Notes: generated from the sequence alone by a model not told the origin. A stretch of 64,000 nt of DNA from Rhodopseudomonas julia (GCF_030813515.1 NZ_JAUSUK010000002.1:620001-684000); one strand, 5' to 3'; shown: positions 32,703 through 42,850, numbered from the stretch's first letter. Numbers and translations: made by a program.

Positions 32703-33152
32703 TTGCCTGAGATCCTCTTCTACCATCTGGAGACGAGGCCTCTCGACAGGGCGCTTCCGGACCTTTTGCAGCGCTCGCTCGATCGCGGCTGGCGGGCGGT
32801 CGTGCAGGCCGGCAGCGACGAGCGGCTGGCTTCTCTCGATGCGGCGCTCTGGACGTTCGATGACGCGTCGTTTCTGCCTCACGGAATGGCCGAAGACGGC
32901 CGTTCGGAAGATCAGCCGGTCTTCCTCACCACGACGCCGGAAAACCCGAACGGGGCGGCGATCCGATTTCTCCTCGATTGTGCCGAGGAGGGCGATTTTT
33001 CAGGCTATCAGCGTGTCGTCTATCTTTTCGAGGCAGCAAACGAGGCCACCATGCAGTGGGCTCGGCAGGCATGGAAACGTCTCAAGTCCGAAGGCGCCGA
33101 GATGACCTATTGGAAACAGGATTCCGACGGCCGCTGGAAGAAGCAGGGTTAA
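32703..33152 (+). CDS. holC: DNA polymerase III chi subunit
   Basis: HolC links the clamp loader to single-stranded DNA-binding protein. 149 residues with the family pattern EILFYHLETRPLDRALPDLLQ at the start, LTTTPENPNGA in the middle and ARQAWKRLKSEGAEMTYWKQD near the end. The start is a TTG preceded by GAGGGAG. The gene follows pepA by 29 bases, as in many proteobacteria. Confidence 0.92.
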   Translation: MPEILFYHLETRPLDRALPDLLQRSLDRGWRAVVQAGSDERLASLDAALWTFDDASFLPHGMAEDGRSEDQPVFLTTTPENPNGAAIRFLLDCAEEGDFSGYQRVVYLFEAANEATMQWARQAWKRLKSEGAEMTYWKQDSDGRWKKQG

Positions 33153-33181
33153 GCCGCGCAGCCGTCGAGGGCTTTCGCCCG

Positions 33182-34165
33182 TCAGCTGGTTTCGGCGCGC
33201 TCGTCTTGCGCAGCCGATGTCGCCAGATGCTCGCGCGGCTTCTGCGCTTCCTCTTTTGCCGCCTCCCAGTAGGAGACCATGCGCGCTGAAAGAGCGTTGG
33301 GGGATTCCGCACAAAGCTTGGCGCCGATATCGAGAGCGGCGGAGCGCAGCTCGCTCTGACGGCGGTCGAGGAGTGCGAGCAAAAGCTCCTGGACCTTCTT
33401 CTTGCCGAAGAGTTTCGGCTCCTCAAGCAGTGTGCCGCGATAGACTGCAAGATCGTGCTCGTCTCCGAGGATATCGGCGAGCGCCTTGGCTTCGGCCCGG
33501 CGCGCCTTCATCGGCTGCGGCCAGATCTCGCGCAGAAGCTTGAGATGCACCCAGTGATATTTGGCGCGCTTGCGCCAGTCGTGAAACACCGCTGAATCTT
33601 CAGAGGTCTGTGCCTTGCGGTAGCCTTTGTCGAGCCGCTTGTAGGTCTTCGCAAAACCCTCTGCGATCGTCTCGAAATCATCGGGGAAGGAAAGTTCGTC
33701 GAGCCGCTTTTCACCGGCATCGAGCGCTTTCATCGTGGCTTTGATGCGCTCGTCGAGATCGGTGACCTCGTCCGTCATTTCCGCCCGGCGGTCGTCCAGC
33801 CTCTGGCGTGTGCCGTAGAGAATGCCGTCTTCGATGCGGTCACCGAAATGGCTGGTGAGGGCGTCATGCGTCTCAAGGAGAGCGGTTGCGTCGCGGATGA
33901 CGGAGAGCTCTCGTGCGATGTCGCGCCAGCGGGCATTCTCCTCCGCATAATCCTCTCCGAGGCCCGGCCGTGCGAGGCGCAAGAGACCACGAAGTTTCTT
34001 GAACCGTTTGCGCGCCAGATGCACCGCTTCGTGGCGATCCTCGGCCTCGTCGGACAGCTCGGCGCGCGCCCGCTCGATCTGTTCGGCGGCGGCGCGCTTC
34101 AGTTCTTCGGCAATGGACGCGGAGGGATTTAGAGAAAAGCTCATGACATCCATATGGGTGCGCAC
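33182..34165 (-). CDS. CHAD domain protein
   Basis: 327-residue, largely alpha-helical protein with repeated charged helices and conserved His residues (EAVHLARKRFKKLRGLLRL; VFHDWRKRAKYHWVHLKLL), the pattern of the CHAD domain, which binds inorganic polyphosphate. GTG 34165 has GAGG at eight bases, better than the ATG codons at 34153 and 34144. It follows the CYTH gene by 15 bases on the same strand. CHAD and CYTH are often fused or adjacent, so the two probably act on polyphosphate together; exact role unknown. Confidence 0.88.
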   Translation of the reverse strand: MRTHMDVMSFSLNPSASIAEELKRAAAEQIERARAELSDEAEDRHEAVHLARKRFKKLRGLLRLARPGLGEDYAEENARWRDIARELSVIRDATALLETHDALTSHFGDRIEDGILYGTRQRLDDRRAEMTDEVTDLDERIKATMKALDAGEKRLDELSFPDDFETIAEGFAKTYKRLDKGYRKAQTSEDSAVFHDWRKRAKYHWVHLKLLREIWPQPMKARRAEAKALADILGDEHDLAVYRGTLLEEPKLFGKKKVQELLLALLDRRQSELRSAALDIGAKLCAESPNALSARMVSYWEAAKEEAQKPREHLATSAAQDERAETS

Positions 34166-34180
34166 CCAGTGCGCCTCAAG

Positions 34181-34651
34181 TCATGTCCAGTCGTGATAAG
34201 GGTGCTGCGACAGAGAGGCATTGGTGTAGCGGCCGTCGCCGGTGACCTCTTCGCCCAACCATTCGGGATGTTCGAATTCCTGATCGGGATGGTCGAGCTC
34301 GATCTCTGCCACGACGAGGCCGGCATTGCGATCCTCGAAGACGTCGATTTCCCAAGCGAGATGACCGTGACGGATAATGTGGCGGGTCTTCTCGATCAGG
34401 CGTCCGGCGCATTTGGCGATCAGCTCCTCACCGTCTTCGAGCGGGATCGCGTATTCGTATTCGTCGCGGCTGATCGCCGCCTTGCCGCTCTTGATGGTGA
34501 GATAGGCCTTTTCGTCATCCACGATGCGAACGCGCAGGCTCGCCCGCTCGTCATTGCACAGATAGCCCTGCCGGATATGCCGGGTTTCGTTGACGGACTT
34601 CCGCCAGTCATCGCTGGCAAGAAGGAATTTGCGTTCAATTTCGAGTGCCAT
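34181..34651 (-). CDS. CYTH domain protein (inorganic triphosphatase-like)
   Basis: 156 residues with the diagnostic ExExK motif at the start (EIERKF, residues 4-9), then KSGKAAISRDEYEY and a C-terminal EIDVFEDRNAGLVVAEIEL with the acidic metal ligands of the triphosphate tunnel. The family includes inorganic triphosphatases and class IV adenylyl cyclases; without the long cyclase features, triphosphatase activity is the better guess. It is the first gene of a two-gene unit with the CHAD protein. Confidence 0.9.
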   Translation of the reverse strand: MALEIERKFLLASDDWRKSVNETRHIRQGYLCNDERASLRVRIVDDEKAYLTIKSGKAAISRDEYEYAIPLEDGEELIAKCAGRLIEKTRHIIRHGHLAWEIDVFEDRNAGLVVAEIELDHPDQEFEHPEWLGEEVTGDGRYTNASLSQHPYHDWT

Positions 34652-34834
34652 GTCTCTGCAAGCTCAAACGTGCCCTGGCGGTTCCCCGCTTTGACGATTC
34701 GTCGCGGCAAAATCTTGTCCACCGGTCGGATGCTTGTCGAATGGCTCGGAGCGAGGATGCGCCATTCGGTTGGAATTTCATTCGTGCGCCGGTTATGGAG
34801 CTAGGTAAATAAGCTTTATCGAACAAGGATCGGG

Positions 34835-35629
34835 ATGATCGGCTTCGTTCCCGCCCCGCTCATGGGGTTCATTGTTGTCGTCGGGACGATAGCGATCGCT
34901 TTTGCGAGCTATTTTGTTGCGCGCACCTTGCTTTCCTCGCGCGGCCCGGAGGAATCGAAGGATCTCGCCGGTTCCGTAGTGATCCGGGTGTCGGCGCTGC
35001 ACGGACTCATCCTGGCGCTGGTTTTCGCTCAAGAACTGGCGAATTTCGACCAGATCGGAGACGGGCTTTCGACAGAGGCGGCGCTGATCGGCGATGTCTT
35101 CCACGACCTCGAGCGCTTCGATGCCGACCTCACCAAAGAGGTGCGGGACGATCTTGCGACTTACACAAGGATCGTTCTCGACGAGGAGCTGCCGGCGCTG
35201 GCGGACGGCAAGCCTCTGCTTCGTAAGGCCTGGGAGAGCTGGGACGACGTCTATAATGCCATCCTCGATCTCGAGCCGCAGAATGTGCGCCAGACGGCTT
35301 TGAAGCCGATACTCATCAAAAATGTGGGGGAGGTGTCGCAGCTGCGGCTGAAGCGGGAGGAAGCCGCAGAGGACGGTGTGAACGGGCTTTTCATGCTGGC
35401 AGCGCTCCTCGGTGTCGCGCTGACGGCCGCCGCCTATTTCGCTTTTCCGCCCACTGTCCCTAACCTTTTGCTCCTGACGATCTTCGGCACGTATACGGGG
35501 CTGATCGTGTTTTTCGTCATCGCCTTCGCGTATCCCTATTCGGAGCCGGGGGAGGTGCGCCCGGTCGGGCTCCAAAAACTCTACGCTTCTGAGATGCAGG
35601 GACGTTTACCTGGTCAATCCTACCCATGA
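34835..35629 (+). CDS. DUF4239 (bestrophin-like) membrane protein
   Basis: 264 residues with four predicted transmembrane helices: two at the N-terminus (about 4-26, and a weaker one near 50-68) and two at the C-terminus (about 185-205 and 212-235), separated by a helical soluble region. This layout and segments such as HGLILALVFAQEL fit DUF4239, a family of unknown function. The stop overlaps the start of the LysE-type exporter gene (ATGA), suggesting a two-gene unit. No catalytic motif is apparent. Confidence 0.75.
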   Translation: MIGFVPAPLMGFIVVVGTIAIAFASYFVARTLLSSRGPEESKDLAGSVVIRVSALHGLILALVFAQELANFDQIGDGLSTEAALIGDVFHDLERFDADLTKEVRDDLATYTRIVLDEELPALADGKPLLRKAWESWDDVYNAILDLEPQNVRQTALKPILIKNVGEVSQLRLKREEAAEDGVNGLFMLAALLGVALTAAAYFAFPPTVPNLLLLTIFGTYTGLIVFFVIAFAYPYSEPGEVRPVGLQKLYASEMQGRLPGQSYP

Positions 35630-36225
35630 ATGCAGCACTTGCCGGCTTTTCGCTCGGGCTCGGCCTCATTTTGGCGATCGGCGCGCAGAATGCCTTCGTG
35701 TTGCGCCAGGGCCTGGTGGGTCGCCACGTTTTCGCCGTCTGTCTCGTCTGTGCGCTTTCCGATGCGGTTCTGATCTCGGCCGGGGTCGCTGGCGCATCAG
35801 GCTTGATGAAGGTTTTGCCGTGGCTCGAGATGGTGATGCGCTATGGCGGCGCGTTGTTTCTCATTACCTATGCGCTGAAGAGCTTTTACTCCGCGCTGAA
35901 GCCGGGGCCAGGGCTGCAGCCACTGGATGCCAATGGACGGGGCCTCGGTGCGGCCGTGGCGACCTGTCTCGCCTTTACCTGGCTCAACCCGCATGTCTAT
36001 CTCGATACGCTCGTGCTCCTCGGCTCGGTGTCCTCGCAATATGAGGGGGAGAGACCGGCCTTTGCTTTGGGCGCGGTGACGGCGTCCTTCTCATTCTTCT
36101 TCGCGCTCGGTTATGGCGCGCGCTTCCTGCGGCCGATCTTCGCCGATCCGCGCGCCTGGCGGGTGCTCGATCTTCTGATCGGCATCATCATGGGTGTGAT
36201 CGCGGTGAGCCTCCTGCGGGGATGA
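35626..36225 (+). CDS. LysE/ArgO family amino-acid exporter
   Basis: 199 residues with six hydrophobic helices and the LysE-family signature LGLILAIGAQNAFVLRQGL, plus FTWLNPHVYLDT. These carriers export basic amino acids, lysine or arginine, to prevent toxic build-up; ArgO-like length and sequence favour arginine/lysine. It overlaps the DUF4239 gene by four bases. No adjacent LysG/ArgP regulator is seen, though arginine-related enzymes (DDAH, agmatinase family) lie about 7 kb downstream. Confidence 0.88.
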   Translation: MNAALAGFSLGLGLILAIGAQNAFVLRQGLVGRHVFAVCLVCALSDAVLISAGVAGASGLMKVLPWLEMVMRYGGALFLITYALKSFYSALKPGPGLQPLDANGRGLGAAVATCLAFTWLNPHVYLDTLVLLGSVSSQYEGERPAFALGAVTASFSFFFALGYGARFLRPIFADPRAWRVLDLLIGIIMGVIAVSLLRG

Positions 36226-36266
36226 GCGGCGAAGGGGCCGATGGCGAAACGCGGACGGCGGACATG

Positions 36267-36292
36267 AAAATGCGGGACGTAAAGTCCCGCAT
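36267..36292 (-). terminator. possible terminator of the pio operon
   Basis: A perfect 9-bp stem (ATGCGGGAC with GTCCCGCAT, five-base loop) lies about 65 bases after the HiPIP stop. On the minus strand it is followed by only four T, so the tail is short. It also lies after the LysE-type gene on the plus strand, where no T run follows. Confidence 0.5.
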
Positions 36293-36356
36293 GGATTGAA
36301 TGGTGAGGCGAGGAGCCCTGAAGAGGCTGTCACGCCTGTTCCGGGTTCGGCCCGCG

Positions 36357-36635
36357 CTACTTCTTGGCGTAGAGGCGGCACCAGCCCTTCGGTGAAATCG
36401 GCCCCTGCACGACCTGACAGGCGTCCGGCGCCTGGAAGTGCCGGCAGTTGTCGCATTCCTGCCGGCCCTTCGGCGTAGTCTGATAGCCGGCGATGCTCTG
36501 CTTGGCCTTGTTGGCGATTTGCGCATTCGCTGCACCCGTCCCGACCAGAGCCAAAGAGCCGGCTGCGATCGCGCAGGCCCCGAGAAGCTCGCGCCGGGAC
36601 ATGCCATTGTTCGATGTCTTTGAGTCGTCTCTCAT
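36357..36635 (-). CDS. pioC: high-potential iron-sulfur protein, PioC type
   Basis: 92-residue precursor. A twin-arginine signal (SRRELLG, Arg14-Arg15) with hydrophobic core ends near AANAQ (about residue 39), so the folded protein is exported by Tat. The mature part has four Cys (C61, C64, C73, C86) in ECDNCRHF...DACQ...GWCRLY, the HiPIP cluster pattern. Mature size of about 54 residues matches the very small PioC of Rhodopseudomonas palustris, which carries electrons from PioAB across the periplasm to the reaction centre. GGAGG precedes ATG 36635. Last gene of the pioABC-like operon, 72 bases after pioB. Confidence 0.9.
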   Translation of the reverse strand: MRDDSKTSNNGMSRRELLGACAIAAGSLALVGTGAANAQIANKAKQSIAGYQTTPKGRQECDNCRHFQAPDACQVVQGPISPKGWCRLYAKK

Positions 36636-36707
36636 TTTGGGTTTCCCTCCTTGGTTTTTCTTTGAATGTGCCCTGATGCGTCGTGTCGATGGCGCTGGGG
36701 GCTTTCC

Positions 36708-39029
36708 TCACCAGCGGTAGACCAGCGAGGCCATGACGGCGTGGACGTTGTAGTTGGTGTCCCAAAAGCCCATCGCGTAGCTCGTGGTCACGCCGTCCTC
36801 GATGAGATGCTGATAGGGCGTGTCGAGCTCGTCCTGCCAGTTGTCGACGAAGTTGCGTTCCCAGGAATATTTCAGCGTCAAAGTCAAATCGCCGTCGAGG
36901 CCAAGAATACCTCCCGCTTCCGGGTGATAATTCAACGCCGCGTCGAAGCGATTGTAGTTTGTCACCACGTCTGGGAAGGGCAGGCAGTTGGTGTCGCCCG
37001 GGCAAAGAGGCGTGGCGATCGGCGTGCGTGAGCTTGCGGTCGCGGTCCATTTGGAGACGCCGCGGGCGAAGCTGTCATAGAGCTCAAGGTCCAGAACGCC
37101 CGGGATGATCTCGATATTGGCGCCGGCGACAAGCGTGTGCACCTGTTCGGTCATCTTGCTGTCCCAGCCGCCGGTGACGAGGGCTGCGCCGCCGCCGGTG
37201 ATGCTGGCGCCGACCATGTCACGGTCGAAATCCTCGTAGACATAGGCGGCCATCAGGTTGATGCCGGGGGTAGGCGAGAATGCCACCTCGATGCCACCGT
37301 CCCAGCTGTTGTCCTTCAAAAGCCCGTATTCCGGGATGGCGGGATCGGTCAGGTAATCGTCGAAGCGCAGGCCGAACGACGGCGTGATGACGAGATTTTC
37401 AAGGGCTTCGTATTCCAGCGAGACCTTCGCCTTGTGACGGTCCCGGTCGGCCATGTCATATTTGCGCACGCCCGGATCGGAATTGGTGCCGAGCGGAGCG
37501 CTCACCATGGCATCGAGCACTGGCCCCAGATCGTAGCTGTCGTAGCGGCGCTGCGAATACTGGTAGCTGGAACGCAGCTGCGCGCGATCCGTGATGCGGG
37601 CGTCGAGCGTGACCTTGCCCAGATATTCGTCGGTCACGTTGACGGAGCGCCTGTCACGGTCCCATCGCTCCCAACCGAACTCGCTGCCAAGCGTGATGCG
37701 GTTGGTCGCGAGCCAGCTCACCTCGGCGGAGGCGTTTTGCTTGGTGTATTGATAGGCGAGGGCTCTCAAGCCACCGGTTGCCGGTGTGGCCGTCGTTGAA
37801 TCGCCCATGATGTACTGGTCGATCAGCCATTCGGGCGTGCGATTGTCGAGATCGTAATAGCGGTAGCGCAGCGTCGTGGAGACATCCTCGGCGATCTGCG
37901 TGCTGATCTTGTTGTTGATGAGGAGCGTGTTGATCTTCGCTCTGGCATCCGTGGTCGGCAGTGACAGCGCCGGGGCGTTCGGGTTGATCGTATACGGGAT
38001 GAGCGTGTCGCTCTGCTCCATCGTCGTATAGGAGACCGTGCCCATGTAGCGGCTCTTCCAGGGCAGATCGATGCCGGTCGTGACGCCGAGCGAATAGGCT
38101 TCGTTGTCCGGCGCGAGGCTGACGCGGCCATATTGCGGAAAGGTGGTGCCGGGGACCTGGTAGTACGGATTCTGGAAGGTGAAGGAATCGTACTTGTTCT
38201 CGTAAGTCGAGGCGTGGCCCGTCACCGATACGTTGAAGCGACCTCCCCAAGGTGTCTTGGAAAAATACTCGCCGCTTGCCTTGAGGTTTTGCGTCACGTC
38301 GTCGACCGGACGGGGCACGTCGACGCGATGCACCTCGCCGGCGCCAAAGCCGTTCATCAAGATGCCGGCGGGCTGCGTTCCCTCGCGATGGTCGTTGAGG
38401 TAGCTCGCCTCAAATTCCCAATTCGGACTTGGCGTGTATGTCTGGTCATAATGGATGCGGCGGCGGTCGATGCCGATGTCGATCGGATGGACGGCACCCG
38501 AGATCGCCGCATCGTATTCTGACGGACTTGGCGGGCTCTCCGGAAACGACACGTCGGTCGACAGGAAGTCGGTGCCGACGCCCTGCCAGATGCTCTGCGC
38601 GGTCGTCGAGTAGAGATGCGGGATCTCGTCCCACATGAAGGTGCCGTTTAAAAGCCCGGTTCGCGACCAGTCGAAGATATAGCGGCCGTTGTTCTGGCCG
38701 ACGTTTTCGGCCCGAACCTCGCCGGAATAGAGGCCGTCGCCCGATTGCCAGCCGAACATCACCTTTTCAAGGAGCAGGCCGGAAGGCACATCGCCATATT
38801 CCTCGAACTTGGCGGAGCTGTACCTTTGCGGCGACAGGATGCTCGGCGTGTCCCAGACGGTGGCGTGATCGGGCGCCTCGTCGATGAAGACGCGGACGCC
38901 CAATTCGATCTCGCCCCAGGTGACCGCCTCGGTGTCTTTGTCGTCCTGTGCCTTGGTTGCCTGCGGCAGCGCCGCGCCACCGGCGAGGAGCGCCATCGTG
39001 GCCAGCGTCAATCGGCGTTGAACCTTCAT
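36708..39029 (-). CDS. pioB: outer-membrane beta-barrel, PioB/MtrB family
   Basis: 773-residue barrel predicted to hold the decaheme cytochrome in an outer-membrane pore, as MtrB does for MtrA. The signal peptide ends near ATKAQ (about residue 28). The mature part is rich in alternating aromatic and polar strands with Tyr/Trp/Asp turns (for example YKDVDFSRTG-like turns, LRYRYYDLDNRTPEW, WGGRFNVSVTGH) and the last residue is an aromatic Trp in SLVYRW, a BAM insertion signal. ATG 39029 has GGGAGGAAACG immediately upstream, deciding it over a longer in-frame reading. Family members are about 700-810 residues. Located between the decaheme and HiPIP genes. Confidence 0.9.
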   Translation of the reverse strand: MKVQRRLTLATMALLAGGAALPQATKAQDDKDTEAVTWGEIELGVRVFIDEAPDHATVWDTPSILSPQRYSSAKFEEYGDVPSGLLLEKVMFGWQSGDGLYSGEVRAENVGQNNGRYIFDWSRTGLLNGTFMWDEIPHLYSTTAQSIWQGVGTDFLSTDVSFPESPPSPSEYDAAISGAVHPIDIGIDRRRIHYDQTYTPSPNWEFEASYLNDHREGTQPAGILMNGFGAGEVHRVDVPRPVDDVTQNLKASGEYFSKTPWGGRFNVSVTGHASTYENKYDSFTFQNPYYQVPGTTFPQYGRVSLAPDNEAYSLGVTTGIDLPWKSRYMGTVSYTTMEQSDTLIPYTINPNAPALSLPTTDARAKINTLLINNKISTQIAEDVSTTLRYRYYDLDNRTPEWLIDQYIMGDSTTATPATGGLRALAYQYTKQNASAEVSWLATNRITLGSEFGWERWDRDRRSVNVTDEYLGKVTLDARITDRAQLRSSYQYSQRRYDSYDLGPVLDAMVSAPLGTNSDPGVRKYDMADRDRHKAKVSLEYEALENLVITPSFGLRFDDYLTDPAIPEYGLLKDNSWDGGIEVAFSPTPGINLMAAYVYEDFDRDMVGASITGGGAALVTGGWDSKMTEQVHTLVAGANIEIIPGVLDLELYDSFARGVSKWTATASSRTPIATPLCPGDTNCLPFPDVVTNYNRFDAALNYHPEAGGILGLDGDLTLTLKYSWERNFVDNWQDELDTPYQHLIEDGVTTSYAMGFWDTNYNVHAVMASLVYRW

Positions 39030-39162
39030 CGTTTCCTCCCCCCAGAGAAATGTCTTCAGGCCTTGGTGTGTGAGCGAAGCTCCTTGCGTGTCGTTGCTGT
39101 TCGGGTGGCTGCGGGGCGGTGCTTGCGAAACCTGCACGCACCCCGCGCCTCCCCCCCTAAGG

Positions 39163-40248
39163 CTAGCGGTGCCAGCGCCTTCCGGACGGGCTGTTGGAGC
39201 CATGGATGTTCGTGTGGCAGTTCTGGCAGGCGCTGTTGACCATGTAGCGGTTGGAGCTGATGCCGAGCGCGGGGTTGCCGAGATGGCGACCCGGCGTGTG
39301 GCAGCGCTGGCACAGCCGCGGCCGCATCACCGTCAGAAGATTGCGGTTCATGGAGCCGTGCGGTTCGTGGCAGTTGAGGCAGTTCTCGCGCACCGGCGGA
39401 TGCTCGAACAGGAACGGCCCGCGCTTGTCGGCATGGCAGGTGTAGCAGACGTCGTTGACGGTCGCTTCCTTCAGCATCTTGTCGTGCGGACCGCCGTGTG
39501 GGTTGTGGCAGCTGCCGCAATCCATCTTGCCCTCGCGCATCGGCATGTGGGCGGTGCGCACCGAGTGGGCGCGGCGATCCTTGTGGCACTGAAAGCAGGT
39601 GTCCATGACGTTGCCCTTGGCCATCTGCATGCGGGGCGAGGTTCGACGCATCACCGTGTGGCAGCTGGTGCAGGCGACACCGCGGGTTTGGTGGACGGAG
39701 CCGCGCCAGTAGGTCCGATCGCCCTTTTCGTGGCAGGACAGGCAGATACCGTTGATGTCGGCCGCCGAGGAACGCGGGTCGTTCGCACGGAAGGAACGAA
39801 TGACGCCGGTGCCGATGTCGTTGCGGCCGCCGCCGGCGTTGACATGCGAAGAGCCGGGTCCGTGGCAGCTCTCGCATTCCATCTTGCCGCCGACAGTGTG
39901 ATGGCCGGTCTCCAGGAGGCGGCCCATCACCGTCAGCTTGAACTCGTCGAAGGAACCCGCATGGCAAAGGCGGCACGGCTCGGAGCCGACGTAATGGGCC
40001 CCGATCGCGGCACCGCTCCCCTTGACCTGCAGCACGTCCTGGCGCGGCAGGTCCTTCAGCGTGTCTTCACGCGAAAGAAGATCCATGGCCATTTGGGCGG
40101 TGTCTGCCGTCTGCGTTTTAGCGGAATCCGGGACGAATACCGCTGCAGCGAGCAAGACGATCGGAATCAGGAAAACAGCAATCGCTGGTCGCCGACCTGC
40201 CGATAAGGCAATAGAGATCGCGCGGCCTACACCGCTTCCAAGTATCAT
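39163..40248 (-). CDS. pioA: decaheme c-type cytochrome, PioA/MtrA family
   Basis: 361 residues with exactly ten CXXCH motifs, at Cys 92, 125, 169, 193, 218, 244, 268, 290, 313 and 341, spread over the mature protein like MtrA/PioA. A basic N-terminus and hydrophobic helix (about 21-40) serve as Sec signal or anchor. The function inferred is periplasmic transfer of electrons from extracellular Fe(II) or an electrode through the PioB pore. It is much shorter than PioA of R. palustris (about 540 residues with a long N-terminal extension) and close to Shewanella MtrA (about 333). ATG 40248 is preceded by GGGGGGAAA. First gene of the operon. Confidence 0.92.
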   Translation of the reverse strand: MILGSGVGRAISIALSAGRRPAIAVFLIPIVLLAAAVFVPDSAKTQTADTAQMAMDLLSREDTLKDLPRQDVLQVKGSGAAIGAHYVGSEPCRLCHAGSFDEFKLTVMGRLLETGHHTVGGKMECESCHGPGSSHVNAGGGRNDIGTGVIRSFRANDPRSSAADINGICLSCHEKGDRTYWRGSVHQTRGVACTSCHTVMRRTSPRMQMAKGNVMDTCFQCHKDRRAHSVRTAHMPMREGKMDCGSCHNPHGGPHDKMLKEATVNDVCYTCHADKRGPFLFEHPPVRENCLNCHEPHGSMNRNLLTVMRPRLCQRCHTPGRHLGNPALGISSNRYMVNSACQNCHTNIHGSNSPSGRRWHR

Positions 40249-40265
40249 CGATTTCCCCCCTCATC

Positions 40266-40281
40266 TAGCGCTTGAGCGCTA
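40266..40281. promoter_or_regulatory. inverted repeat 17 bases before pioA start
   Basis: Perfect palindrome TAGCGCT-TG-AGCGCTA, 7-bp arms with a two-base centre. It could be an operator or a leader hairpin controlling pioA; no known regulator site matches with confidence. Confidence 0.4.
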
Positions 40282-40337
40282 GGGCAATTCTGTCCAGACT
40301 TATTTTATCTGCGAAAAAACATGCAAAAAGACACAGT

Positions 40338-40361
40338 TTATCCGCAGGCTTTTCTGGATAA
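40338..40361. repeat. inverted repeat in pioA leader
   Basis: TTATCC and GGATAA, perfect 6-bp arms 12 bases apart, in the AT-rich region upstream of pioA. If the promoter at 40380-40408 is used, it falls early in the 5' leader. A chance match is possible. Confidence 0.25.
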
Positions 40362-40379
40362 GATTGCCGTTTCATTGCA

Positions 40380-40408
40380 GGTTAAGGGGCGTAGTTTGGA
40401 ATTGTCAA
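40380..40408 (-). promoter_or_regulatory. candidate pioA promoter
   Basis: On the minus strand a consensus -35 TTGACA (40408-40403) is followed after 17 bases by TTAACC (40385-40380), a weak -10, as expected of an activator-dependent promoter. Transcription would start near 40373, giving a leader of about 125 nt. A second AT-rich TAAAAT (minus strand, near 40306) lacks a -35 but is closer to the gene. Confidence 0.35.
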
Positions 40409-40425
40409 TTGTGAAATTAGAAAAT

Positions 40426-40439
40426 TTGTATGTTCGCAA
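40426..40439. promoter_or_regulatory. FNR/FixK-like half-symmetric site upstream of pioA
   Basis: TTG-N8-CAA (TTGTATGTTCGCAA), the invariant triads of FNR/FixK sites, centred about 60 bases before the proposed transcription start. The inner bases differ from TTGAT-N4-ATCAA, so the match is partial. FixK control of pioABC is established in R. palustris TIE-1, which makes the site worth testing. Confidence 0.3.
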
Positions 40440-40863
40440 GTGCAAAATGGAGTTTCTTGGTTATGTCGCGTAGAAACTTTGATGAATTCTAAGAATATAT
40501 ATAAAGAGCTCTATGCCGTCAGCGCGTTGTGTTTGTTTCACAAGGGTTTGGCGGCGTGTGCGAGAGCGACTGAGCCTGCGAGGAGAGGCGTTTCTGGTGG
40601 CTCGTTTTCCCCCGGAGGGGGGGGCGGCGCGCAAAATTTCGGGCCACGAGATGGGGCAGGGTCGCGTCCGCGCCGCGCCGGGGCCGAACTCGCCCGATTT
40701 CACGCCTTCCTCGATCGCCGCCGTCGCCGCGCCGAGCGTTTCTTCAGAGAGTCCAAACACTTCGGTGTGGATGGCGAGCTTTCGGGAAAAGCGAGGCCAA
40801 AGGTCTCGCTCTCGGCAAGCGCGCTTGCCTCAAAAAATTGGATTCGGGCTCGGAATCGGCCGC
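40440..40863. other. gap between pio operon and ABC-F gene, no confident gene
   Basis: No convincing gene. The half nearest pioA is AT-rich compared with the surroundings (for example AATATATATAAAG at 40493-40505). The other half is GC-rich. A minus-strand reading from about 40760 downward (starting VFGLSEETLGAA) has plausible codon use for some 40 residues but no ribosome site and a disordered Arg/Ser tail; it could be a decayed gene end. A CCCCC-GGA-GGGGG hairpin at about 40611-40623 lacks a T tail on either strand. Confidence 0.4.
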
Positions 40864-42750
40864 TTAGGCCGCATCGGGCTCTCGGCCGAGCTCCTCCAGC
40901 ATCGCGCCAAGTTCGATCCAGCGCTCTTCCAGGCGTTCCAGCATGGCCGCTTTTTCACCGCGCTTCTTGGCGAGCGTCGCGGCCTTTTCGGGCATGGCGC
41001 GATGCAGCGCGGTCGATGCGAGTTCCTCGTCCAGGGCTTCGATCTCGCTCGTGAAGACGTCGATCAGCCGCTCGCATTCCTTGAGCTTCTGGCGCAGGGG
41101 TGCCGAGGTGCGGCGTTTGTCGGCCTGTTTCTGGCGGCCGGCCGCCGGGGCCGCAGCGGTCTTTTCCGCTGCCGGCTTCTTCGCCGGACCTTCGAGCACT
41201 TCGCGGCGATAATCTTCGATGTCGCCGTCATAAGGGGCGACGGTGCCTTTCGAGGTCAGCCAGAGCCTGTCGACGGAGGCTTCGATCAAATGGCGATCAT
41301 GGCTGATCAGAATCACTGCGCCGGAATAATCGTTGAGGGCATGGATGAGCGCCTCGCGGCTGTCGACGTCGAGATGGTTGGTCGGCTCGTCGAGGATGAG
41401 GAGATGCGGCCGGCCCAGCGTGGCGAGGCCCATCAACAGGCGCGCCTTTTCACCGCCGGAAAGATCCTTCGCCTTGGTGTCCATCTTCTGCGTGGCGAGC
41501 CCCATCTGCGCGACGCGGGCGCGAAGCTGCGGCTCTGAAAGGTCGGGGAGGCGCGCGCGGATATGCTCCACGGCCGACTGGCCCGGAATGAGCTCGTCGA
41601 GCTGGTGCTGAGCGAAAAAGCCGATCTTGAGCTTGTTGGAGCGCTTGAAGGTTCCGGCTTCGGCTTCGAGCTGGCCTGAAATCAGCTTGGCGAAGGTCGA
41701 TTTGCCGTTGCCGTTGGCTCCGAGGAGCGCGATGCGATCATCGTCGTCGATCCTGAGGTTGAGGTTCGTCAGGATCGGGTGGCCCGGCTCGTAGCCGACC
41801 GAAACGCCCTCGAGCTGCAGGATCGGCGGGGCGGCGCGCTTTTCCGGATCCGGGAAGCGGAAGGGCAGGACCGTCTCGTCGGCGATGGTGGAGACCGGCT
41901 GCAGCTTGGCGAGAGCCTTCAGGCGCGACTGCGCCTGCCGCGCTTTCGACGCCTTGGCGCGGAAGCGGTCGACGAAAGCCTCCATGTGCTTGCGTTGCGC
42001 TTCCTGCTTGTCTTTGAGCTTGGCCTGCAGGGCCTGACGCTCGGCGCGCTGGCGCTCAAAACTGTCATAGCCGCCGGAATAGGTGGTGAGCTTCTGCTCC
42101 GACAGATGCACGATCATGCGCACGGCGTTGTTCAGGAGATCGCGGTCGTGCGAAATCAGGATCGCCGAATGCCGATAGCGGGCGATGTAGCGCTCCAGCC
42201 ACAACGAGCCTTCAAGGTCGAGATAGTTCGTCGGTTCGTCGAGGAGGAGAAGGTCAGGCTCGGTGAAGAGAACCGCGGCGAGGGCCACGCGCATGCGCCA
42301 GCCGCCAGAGAATTCCGAGCAGGGCCGGTTCTGCGCCTCTTCGTCGAAGCCGAGGCCTTTCAGAATGCGCGCGGCGCGAGCCTCCGCCTCATGGGCGCCG
42401 ATTTCGGCAAGGCGGGTGTGGATCTCGCCGATGCGCCCGCCTTCCTTGGCGGTTTCGGTTTCGGCCAGAAGCCGGCTGCGCTCTTCGTCGGCAGCAAGCA
42501 CGGTTTCAATCAGTGTTTCCGGGCCGCCCGGCGCTTCCTGCAGCACGCGGCCGATGCGGGCGCGCTTGGGAAGGATGATTTCGCCCTCGTCGGGGGCGAT
42601 GTCGCCCGCAATGGCACGAAAGAGCGTGGTCTTGCCGGCACCATTCTTGCCGACGAAGCCCACCTTCGAGCCCGCGGGAAGGTTGAGGCTCGCCTTGTCG
42701 ATGAGGGTGCGTCCGGCAATGCGGAGCGTGATGTTTGAAAGCTGCAGCAT
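40864..42750 (-). CDS. ABC-F family ATP-binding protein
   Basis: Soluble protein with two ABC ATPase domains and no membrane helices. Walker A GKNGAGKTT (residues 34-42) and a second GANGNGKST, signatures FSGGWRMR and LSGGEKARL, Walker B LLLDEPTNYLD and LILDEPTNHLD. A charged linker joins the domains (KDKQEAQRKHMEAFVDRFRA region) and a C-terminal coiled-coil Lys/Glu-rich domain is present, as in Uup/YheS-type proteins. Such factors act on the ribosome; resistance function is possible but not shown. MLQLSNITLRIAG at ATG 42750 is the standard start, although no strong ribosome site is visible. About 628 residues. Confidence 0.92.
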   Translation of the reverse strand: MLQLSNITLRIAGRTLIDKASLNLPAGSKVGFVGKNGAGKTTLFRAIAGDIAPDEGEIILPKRARIGRVLQEAPGGPETLIETVLAADEERSRLLAETETAKEGGRIGEIHTRLAEIGAHEAEARAARILKGLGFDEEAQNRPCSEFSGGWRMRVALAAVLFTEPDLLLLDEPTNYLDLEGSLWLERYIARYRHSAILISHDRDLLNNAVRMIVHLSEQKLTTYSGGYDSFERQRAERQALQAKLKDKQEAQRKHMEAFVDRFRAKASKARQAQSRLKALAKLQPVSTIADETVLPFRFPDPEKRAAPPILQLEGVSVGYEPGHPILTNLNLRIDDDDRIALLGANGNGKSTFAKLISGQLEAEAGTFKRSNKLKIGFFAQHQLDELIPGQSAVEHIRARLPDLSEPQLRARVAQMGLATQKMDTKAKDLSGGEKARLLMGLATLGRPHLLILDEPTNHLDVDSREALIHALNDYSGAVILISHDRHLIEASVDRLWLTSKGTVAPYDGDIEDYRREVLEGPAKKPAAEKTAAAPAAGRQKQADKRRTSAPLRQKLKECERLIDVFTSEIEALDEELASTALHRAMPEKAATLAKKRGEKAAMLERLEERWIELGAMLEELGREPDAA

Positions 42751-42850
42751 GCCGAGGGCATAGAGGCTCCGCTGGGCGGAAGGCAAGCGGTTCGCGTCAC
42801 GCGCGCTCTTGGCGCTTGCAATGCGCATGAGCGGCGGCTACCGCCGTTGC

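Follow-up and report, generated by a model that had tools for sequence, protein, structure and literature searches.

The pio locus

The window analysed is a stretch of 64,000 nucleotides, positions 620001-684000 of contig C2 in a genome of 3.79 Mb (G000). Its minus strand carries, from 40248 to 36357, a complete pioABC operon in the gene order A-B-C, as read from the open reading frames in the window. The features of the locus and its surroundings are as follows.

32703..33152, plus strand: holC (DNA polymerase III chi), flanking gene (Pfam PF04364, 9.9e-34)
33153..40863, no strand assigned: Afifella-specific block, containing CHAD, CYTH, bestrophin-like, LysE, pioC, pioB and pioA genes (genome comparison)
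36357..36635, minus strand: pioC, Tat-exported high-potential iron-sulfur protein (HiPIP), 92 amino acids (match to 6xyv_A, TAT signal)
36708..39029, minus strand: pioB, outer-membrane beta-barrel porin of the MtrB/PioB family, 773 amino acids (PF11854, AlphaFold2 model)
39163..40248, minus strand: pioA, periplasmic decaheme c-type cytochrome, 361 amino acids (ten CXXCH motifs, TIGR03508, tree clade)
40249..40863, minus strand: intergenic region upstream of pioA, presumed promoter (box scan)
40864..42828, minus strand: ABC-F family ATPase, flanking gene and conserved neighbour (Pfam ABC_tran twice, ABC_tran_Xtn)

The intergenic gaps are 133 bp between pioA and pioB and 72 bp between pioB and pioC. 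The start of pioB was placed at the ATG at 39029 and not at 39203, where the longest open reading frame begins. The first-pass annotation had described a ten-heme cytochrome, an MtrB/PioB barrel and a Tat-exported HiPIP in the order of the pio genes, and the three same-strand reading frames are indeed present. Its span of 36357-40281 is correct at the 36357 end, whereas 40281 lies 33 bp upstream of the pioA start at 40248.

The genes and their order are conserved in the window and in three further Afifella genomes. Comparison of the window with three other Afifella gave dN/dS ratios of 0.05-0.20 for PioA, 0.07-0.31 for PioB and 0.16-0.31 for PioC, showing that the pio genes have been kept as working proteins. 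The arrangement is thus not due to chance.

Relatives of the three proteins

PioA has exactly ten CXXCH motifs, the first heme cysteine being residue 92. It matches the Pfam paired-CXXCH family and exceeds the cut-off of TIGR03508 ("DmsE family decaheme") with 238.9 bits. Its best solved relative in a sequence search of the PDB is MtrA (6r2q_A, 4.8e-57), a chain wrongly labelled "cystathionine beta-synthase" in the sequence set used; entry 6r2q is the Mtr complex. An AlphaFold2 model of PioA by itself had a pLDDT of 45.7 and was set aside.

The gene for the MtrB/PioB-type barrel lies directly 3' of the cytochrome gene and is the only copy of its family in the whole genome. PioB matches the Pfam family MtrB_PioB (PF11854) at 1.7e-119 and TIGR03509 with 408 bits, the cut-off being 240. 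A phmmer search of PioB against PDB sequences gave no match, and the link to MtrB comes solely from fold comparison. The AlphaFold2 model of PioB (pLDDT 79.5) has MtrB (6r2q_B) as its best match in the PDB, with TM-scores of 0.75/0.88 and a Z-score of 24.3; the next chain has a Z-score of 16.9.

PioC begins with a twin-arginine signal (MSRRELL) and is above the cut-off of TIGR01409. Its best solved relative is PioC of Rhodopseudomonas palustris (6xyv_A, 3.2e-14). The four cysteines already recognized in the first reading of this protein as a HiPIP are C61, C64, C73 and C86; they and the RR motif are invariant across 12 homologues. The HIPIP Pfam profile found zero matches in the whole genome, but this search also missed PioC itself, and hence gives no information on further HiPIPs.

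Phylogeny of PioA and occurrence of PioC

A maximum likelihood tree of the heme domain of PioA was calculated with IQ-TREE for 60 homologues. PioA of Afifella falls into a clade with those of Rhodopseudomonas, Rhodomicrobium and Blastochloris (support 100/98). In this clade it is sister to the proteins of Rhodomicrobium, Blastochloris, "Rhodovulum sp. PH10", a Bradyrhizobium MAG and Rhodopseudomonas (100/98). Diverged alphaproteobacterial homologues and those from Elusimicrobia are situated outside the clade, and Shewanella MtrA and the gammaproteobacterial homologues are on the far side of the tree.

A PioC-type gene is found 3' of pioB in those members of the PioA clade whose contig extends far enough (that of L010 ends before pioB). 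No PioC-type HiPIP was found beside the deeper PioAB relatives examined, except for one weak match in L087. The position of PioA, the distribution of PioC and the match of the PioB model to MtrB together uphold the earlier pioABC identification: PioA belongs to a purple-phototroph clade with support of 100/98, and the HiPIP is nearest to that of R. palustris. The best matches might instead have been respiratory DmsE/MtrA paralogues, as the first-pass annotation had considered. The tree does not bear this out, MtrA lying on its other side.

Some of the other loci have features of their own. Two Elusimicrobia MAGs (L018, L019) carry PioAB-like pairs of 38-47% identity that branch near the alphaproteobacterial PioA clade, which suggests either transfer between phyla or mis-binned contigs. 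In a Xanthobacteraceae MAG (L017:10750-13927), pioAB is followed by multiheme reading frames with seven and four CXXCH motifs in place of the HiPIP.

The host and its relatives

The host is a marine purple non-sulfur bacterium of the genus Afifella, its genome being close to that of A. marina. Its PioA shares 98% identity with the protein of Afifella marina DSM 2698 and 79% with that of Afifella sp. IM 167; over the heme domain, its identity to the protein of A. pfennigii is 83%. The genome encodes PufL, PufM, the adjoining tetraheme PufC and RuBisCO, showing that the phototrophic context is real. The puf genes are on the same contig about 0.87 Mb from pio. An outer-surface cytochrome of the MtrC/OmcA type was not found in the genome using TIGR03507, the one model searched; the Pio complex of R. 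palustris also has no extracellular cytochrome (PMC6831781).

Each of the five Afifella genomes contains puf as well as pioA. Over 60 relatives the distribution of pioA is patchy, being confined to the Afifella genomes, G039, which groups with Rhodomicrobium, and G008, where the copy is diverged. Two genomes of one other genus in the same family (G007, G010) have puf and lack pioA, while G008, also of this family, has pioAB with no puf or HiPIP found. The pio operon is therefore not simply tied to phototrophy. The G008 copy (L085, contig C130) encodes a PioA that is about 51% identical and has no N-terminal extension.

A search for literature linking Afifella to pioA, to photoferrotrophy or to electron transfer outside the cell gave nothing relevant, which is no proof of absence; it likewise gave no report that Afifella oxidises Fe(II) or takes up electrons from a cathode.

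The N-terminal region of PioA

PioA of R. palustris has a signal of 40 amino acids and an N-terminal region of 200 amino acids with a processing site at Ala243; proteolysis removes this region, giving holo-PioA (PMC6831781). The extension and an internal hydrophobic region have been reported to be conserved in phototrophs, and a "PioA-like" subgroup has been described by its large N-terminal extension and by an internal, hydrophobic processing region ahead of heme 1 (PMC6831781).

The extension of about 200 residues is missing from PioA of every Afifella examined. Between the first methionine and heme 1 there are 81-100 residues in Afifella, but 191-312 in every other member of the clade. Afifella PioA has one main hydrophobic segment, at about residues 22-40 in the window protein (the signal), with 36-63 residues between it and heme 1. 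This length is close to that remaining after processing in R. palustris. The protein is thus a PioA by its position in the tree and is not "PioA-like" by its N-terminus.

The difference between short and long N-termini amounts to one change on the tree of the phototroph PioA proteins and the two outgroups nearest to them. As both outgroups carry the extension, it is simpler to assume that Afifella has lost it, although the direction is not provable; PioA of G008, which is deeper in the tree, is likewise short. The laboratory delta-200 mutant of R. palustris has a natural counterpart in Afifella. Fe(II) oxidation persists in this mutant, though its level of holo-PioA is lower and its lag is longer (PMC6831781). 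The short PioA of Afifella would hence be expected to work, but might be less active.

Most of the extensions are rich in histidine (5-15 residues), and many contain up to 8 S/N/K-P-H-G-like repeats, which are absent from Afifella. That the extension helps to handle heme is no more than a guess. The pioA N-termini of L007-L015 are mostly His-rich and many bear S/N-P-H-G-like repeats, although the published account describes the extensions as lacking sequence conservation. Two further alphaproteobacterial PioAB loci (L083 and L084, in G305 and G379) have about 177 residues before heme 1; no PufL/M and no nearby HiPIP were found there. A long PioA N-terminus is therefore not restricted to phototrophs.

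The upstream region

Expression of pio in R. palustris is controlled through FixK boxes, TTGA-N6-TCAA (PMC3050613). Exact boxes were found upstream of pioA in all four Rhodopseudomonas loci, using the same scan as for the window. Upstream of pioA in the window (40249..40863) there is no such box with one mismatch or less. Look-alikes with two mismatches near pioA are weak and were not accepted as sites. The scan also found none at the pioA loci of Rhodomicrobium, Blastochloris and PH10, so that control by FixK looks specific to Rhodopseudomonas within this set.

The genomic site and its history

The gene order in Afifella is lptD-lptF/G-pepA-holC-[CHAD, CYTH, bestrophin-like, LysE, pioC, pioB, pioA]-abcF. 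The bracketed genes, flanked by holC and the ABC-F gene, make up a block of 7.7 kb that is kept with small variations in the Afifella genomes examined. In the window, the CYTH gene adjoins the bestrophin-like and LysE genes (34181-36225) within this block. A. pfennigii has no LysE or bestrophin match at the block, indicating that these genes came or went separately.

The ABC-F gene has a single strong match in seven of the seven relatives searched. The spacing between holC and abcF, approximate because it was taken from tblastn ends, is about 40-75 bp in G006, G007 and G010 (two genera) and 0.7-0.9 kb in G005, G008 and G009. Between these genes, no match to the block genes was found in the six genomes, which represent five sister genera, one of them phototrophic. 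Since the sister genera have the same housekeeping neighbours without the block, its probable origin is an insertion at this site in an ancestor of Afifella. This gives substance to the earlier suggestion that a location beside housekeeping genes may tell of how the operon was acquired. No tRNA was found at the site, nor anything in the block resembling insertion scars or flanking repeats, and the GC content is unremarkable; the insertion is therefore not obviously recent.

The history might also have run the other way, with a pio operon ancestral to the family and lost from the sister genera. The diverged pioAB on another contig of G008 agrees with this, as does the tree, in which Afifella PioA branches as sister to the rest of the phototroph proteins instead of within a donor genus. 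However, a separate loss would be needed in each of five genera, and holC is separated from abcF by about 40-75 bp in three genomes (two genera) and by at most 0.9 kb in three others, with no pio match between them. An ancestral operon is thus unlikely, and insertion in the Afifella ancestor is preferred.

Proposed function

Most probably, the locus is a functional pioABC operon for phototrophic extracellular electron uptake, with a PioA free of the pro-region and a probable ancestral insertion. With gene sets of this kind, other purple bacteria obtain electrons for photosynthesis from dissolved iron or from electrodes. In R. palustris, PioAB oxidises Fe(II) and PioC passes the electrons to the reaction centre, which PioA can also do directly (PMC10304953). 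By analogy, the PioB barrel in the outer membrane of Afifella would hold decaheme PioA, which would accept electrons from extracellular Fe(II), or possibly from a mineral or a cathode, and hand them to the periplasmic HiPIP PioC. PioC may then re-reduce the photosynthetic reaction centre, probably via the bound tetraheme PufC, and the electrons would serve light-driven CO2 fixation. PufC is the likely point of entry because Afifella possesses it, unlike R. palustris TIE-1, which is reported to have no multiheme reaction-centre cytochrome (PMC10304953). PioA would be secreted by an ordinary N-terminal signal at about the length of mature holo-PioA, with no pro-region of about 200 amino acids to be cut off. 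The donor, the direction of flow, the step from PioC to PufC, the signal cleavage site of PioA and the expression of pio in Afifella are all inferences here.

The same components might form a respiratory conduit of the MtrAB/DmsEF type that exports electrons to extracellular acceptors. PioA passes the TIGR03508 cut-off and aligns to MtrA of 6r2q, and conduits of the MtrAB type can in principle run in either direction (PMC8805035). Nevertheless, PioA falls into the phototroph clade, a PioC-type HiPIP adjoins, the genome is phototrophic, there is no terminal reductase among the neighbouring genes and no MtrC match in the genome, all of which make an outward conduit highly improbable. Somewhat less improbable, yet still distinctly doubtful, is that the operon serves detoxification of Fe(II) or redox poising with a weak energetic benefit, and not true photoferrotrophic growth. 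This would accord with the missing FixK boxes and with a PioA lacking the extension that keeps holo-PioA high in R. palustris (PMC6831781). On the other hand, RuBisCO and PufLMC are present, and the operon is intact and under purifying selection in the Afifella genomes examined. Light-driven electron uptake is thus the preferred function, and it seems reasonably probable that Afifella has a second kind of phototrophic Pio conduit that needs no pro-region, the PioA extension having been lost or never present, with working PioABC proteins that probably feed electrons in via PufC.

Comparison with known systems

The operon resembles pioABC of R. palustris TIE-1 in its A-B-C order, ten hemes, MtrB/PioB barrel, Tat-exported HiPIP, lack of MtrC and phototrophic host with RuBisCO. 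It differs in having no pro-region of about 200 amino acids or processing site in PioA, no FixK boxes and a reaction centre with PufC, which is reported absent in TIE-1 (PMC10304953). Rhodomicrobium and Blastochloris, whose PioA proteins are among the nearest from other genera (heme domains 67-71% identical), share the operon plan, but have about 190-250 residues before the first heme compared with 81-100 in Afifella.

The decaheme-in-barrel architecture is common to MtrAB/MtrCAB of Shewanella, MtoAB of Sideroxydans and DmsEF. Afifella PioA is about as short as MtrA, and the PioB model matches MtrB. However, Shewanella MtrA is in a separate clade, and MtrCAB includes an outer cytochrome that was not found in the Afifella genome. 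MtrAB/MtrCAB and DmsEF are not known to have a PioC-type HiPIP. The mtoAB locus of Sideroxydans also has none (PMC10654088).

The Afifella operon is ordinary in its parts and their order, and unusual in its short PioA and its well-defined, lineage-specific site. With it, a marine genus joins the few predicted photoferrotrophs. Set against the sister genera, the operon is also a clear case of apparent gain at one identifiable chromosomal site. The short PioA runs counter to the published generalisation that the extension and internal hydrophobic region are conserved in phototrophs, and Afifella offers natural short-PioA operons for testing the role of the pro-region. If Afifella does have a working conduit of this kind, a maturation step of PioA held to be conserved in phototrophs would be dispensable in nature.
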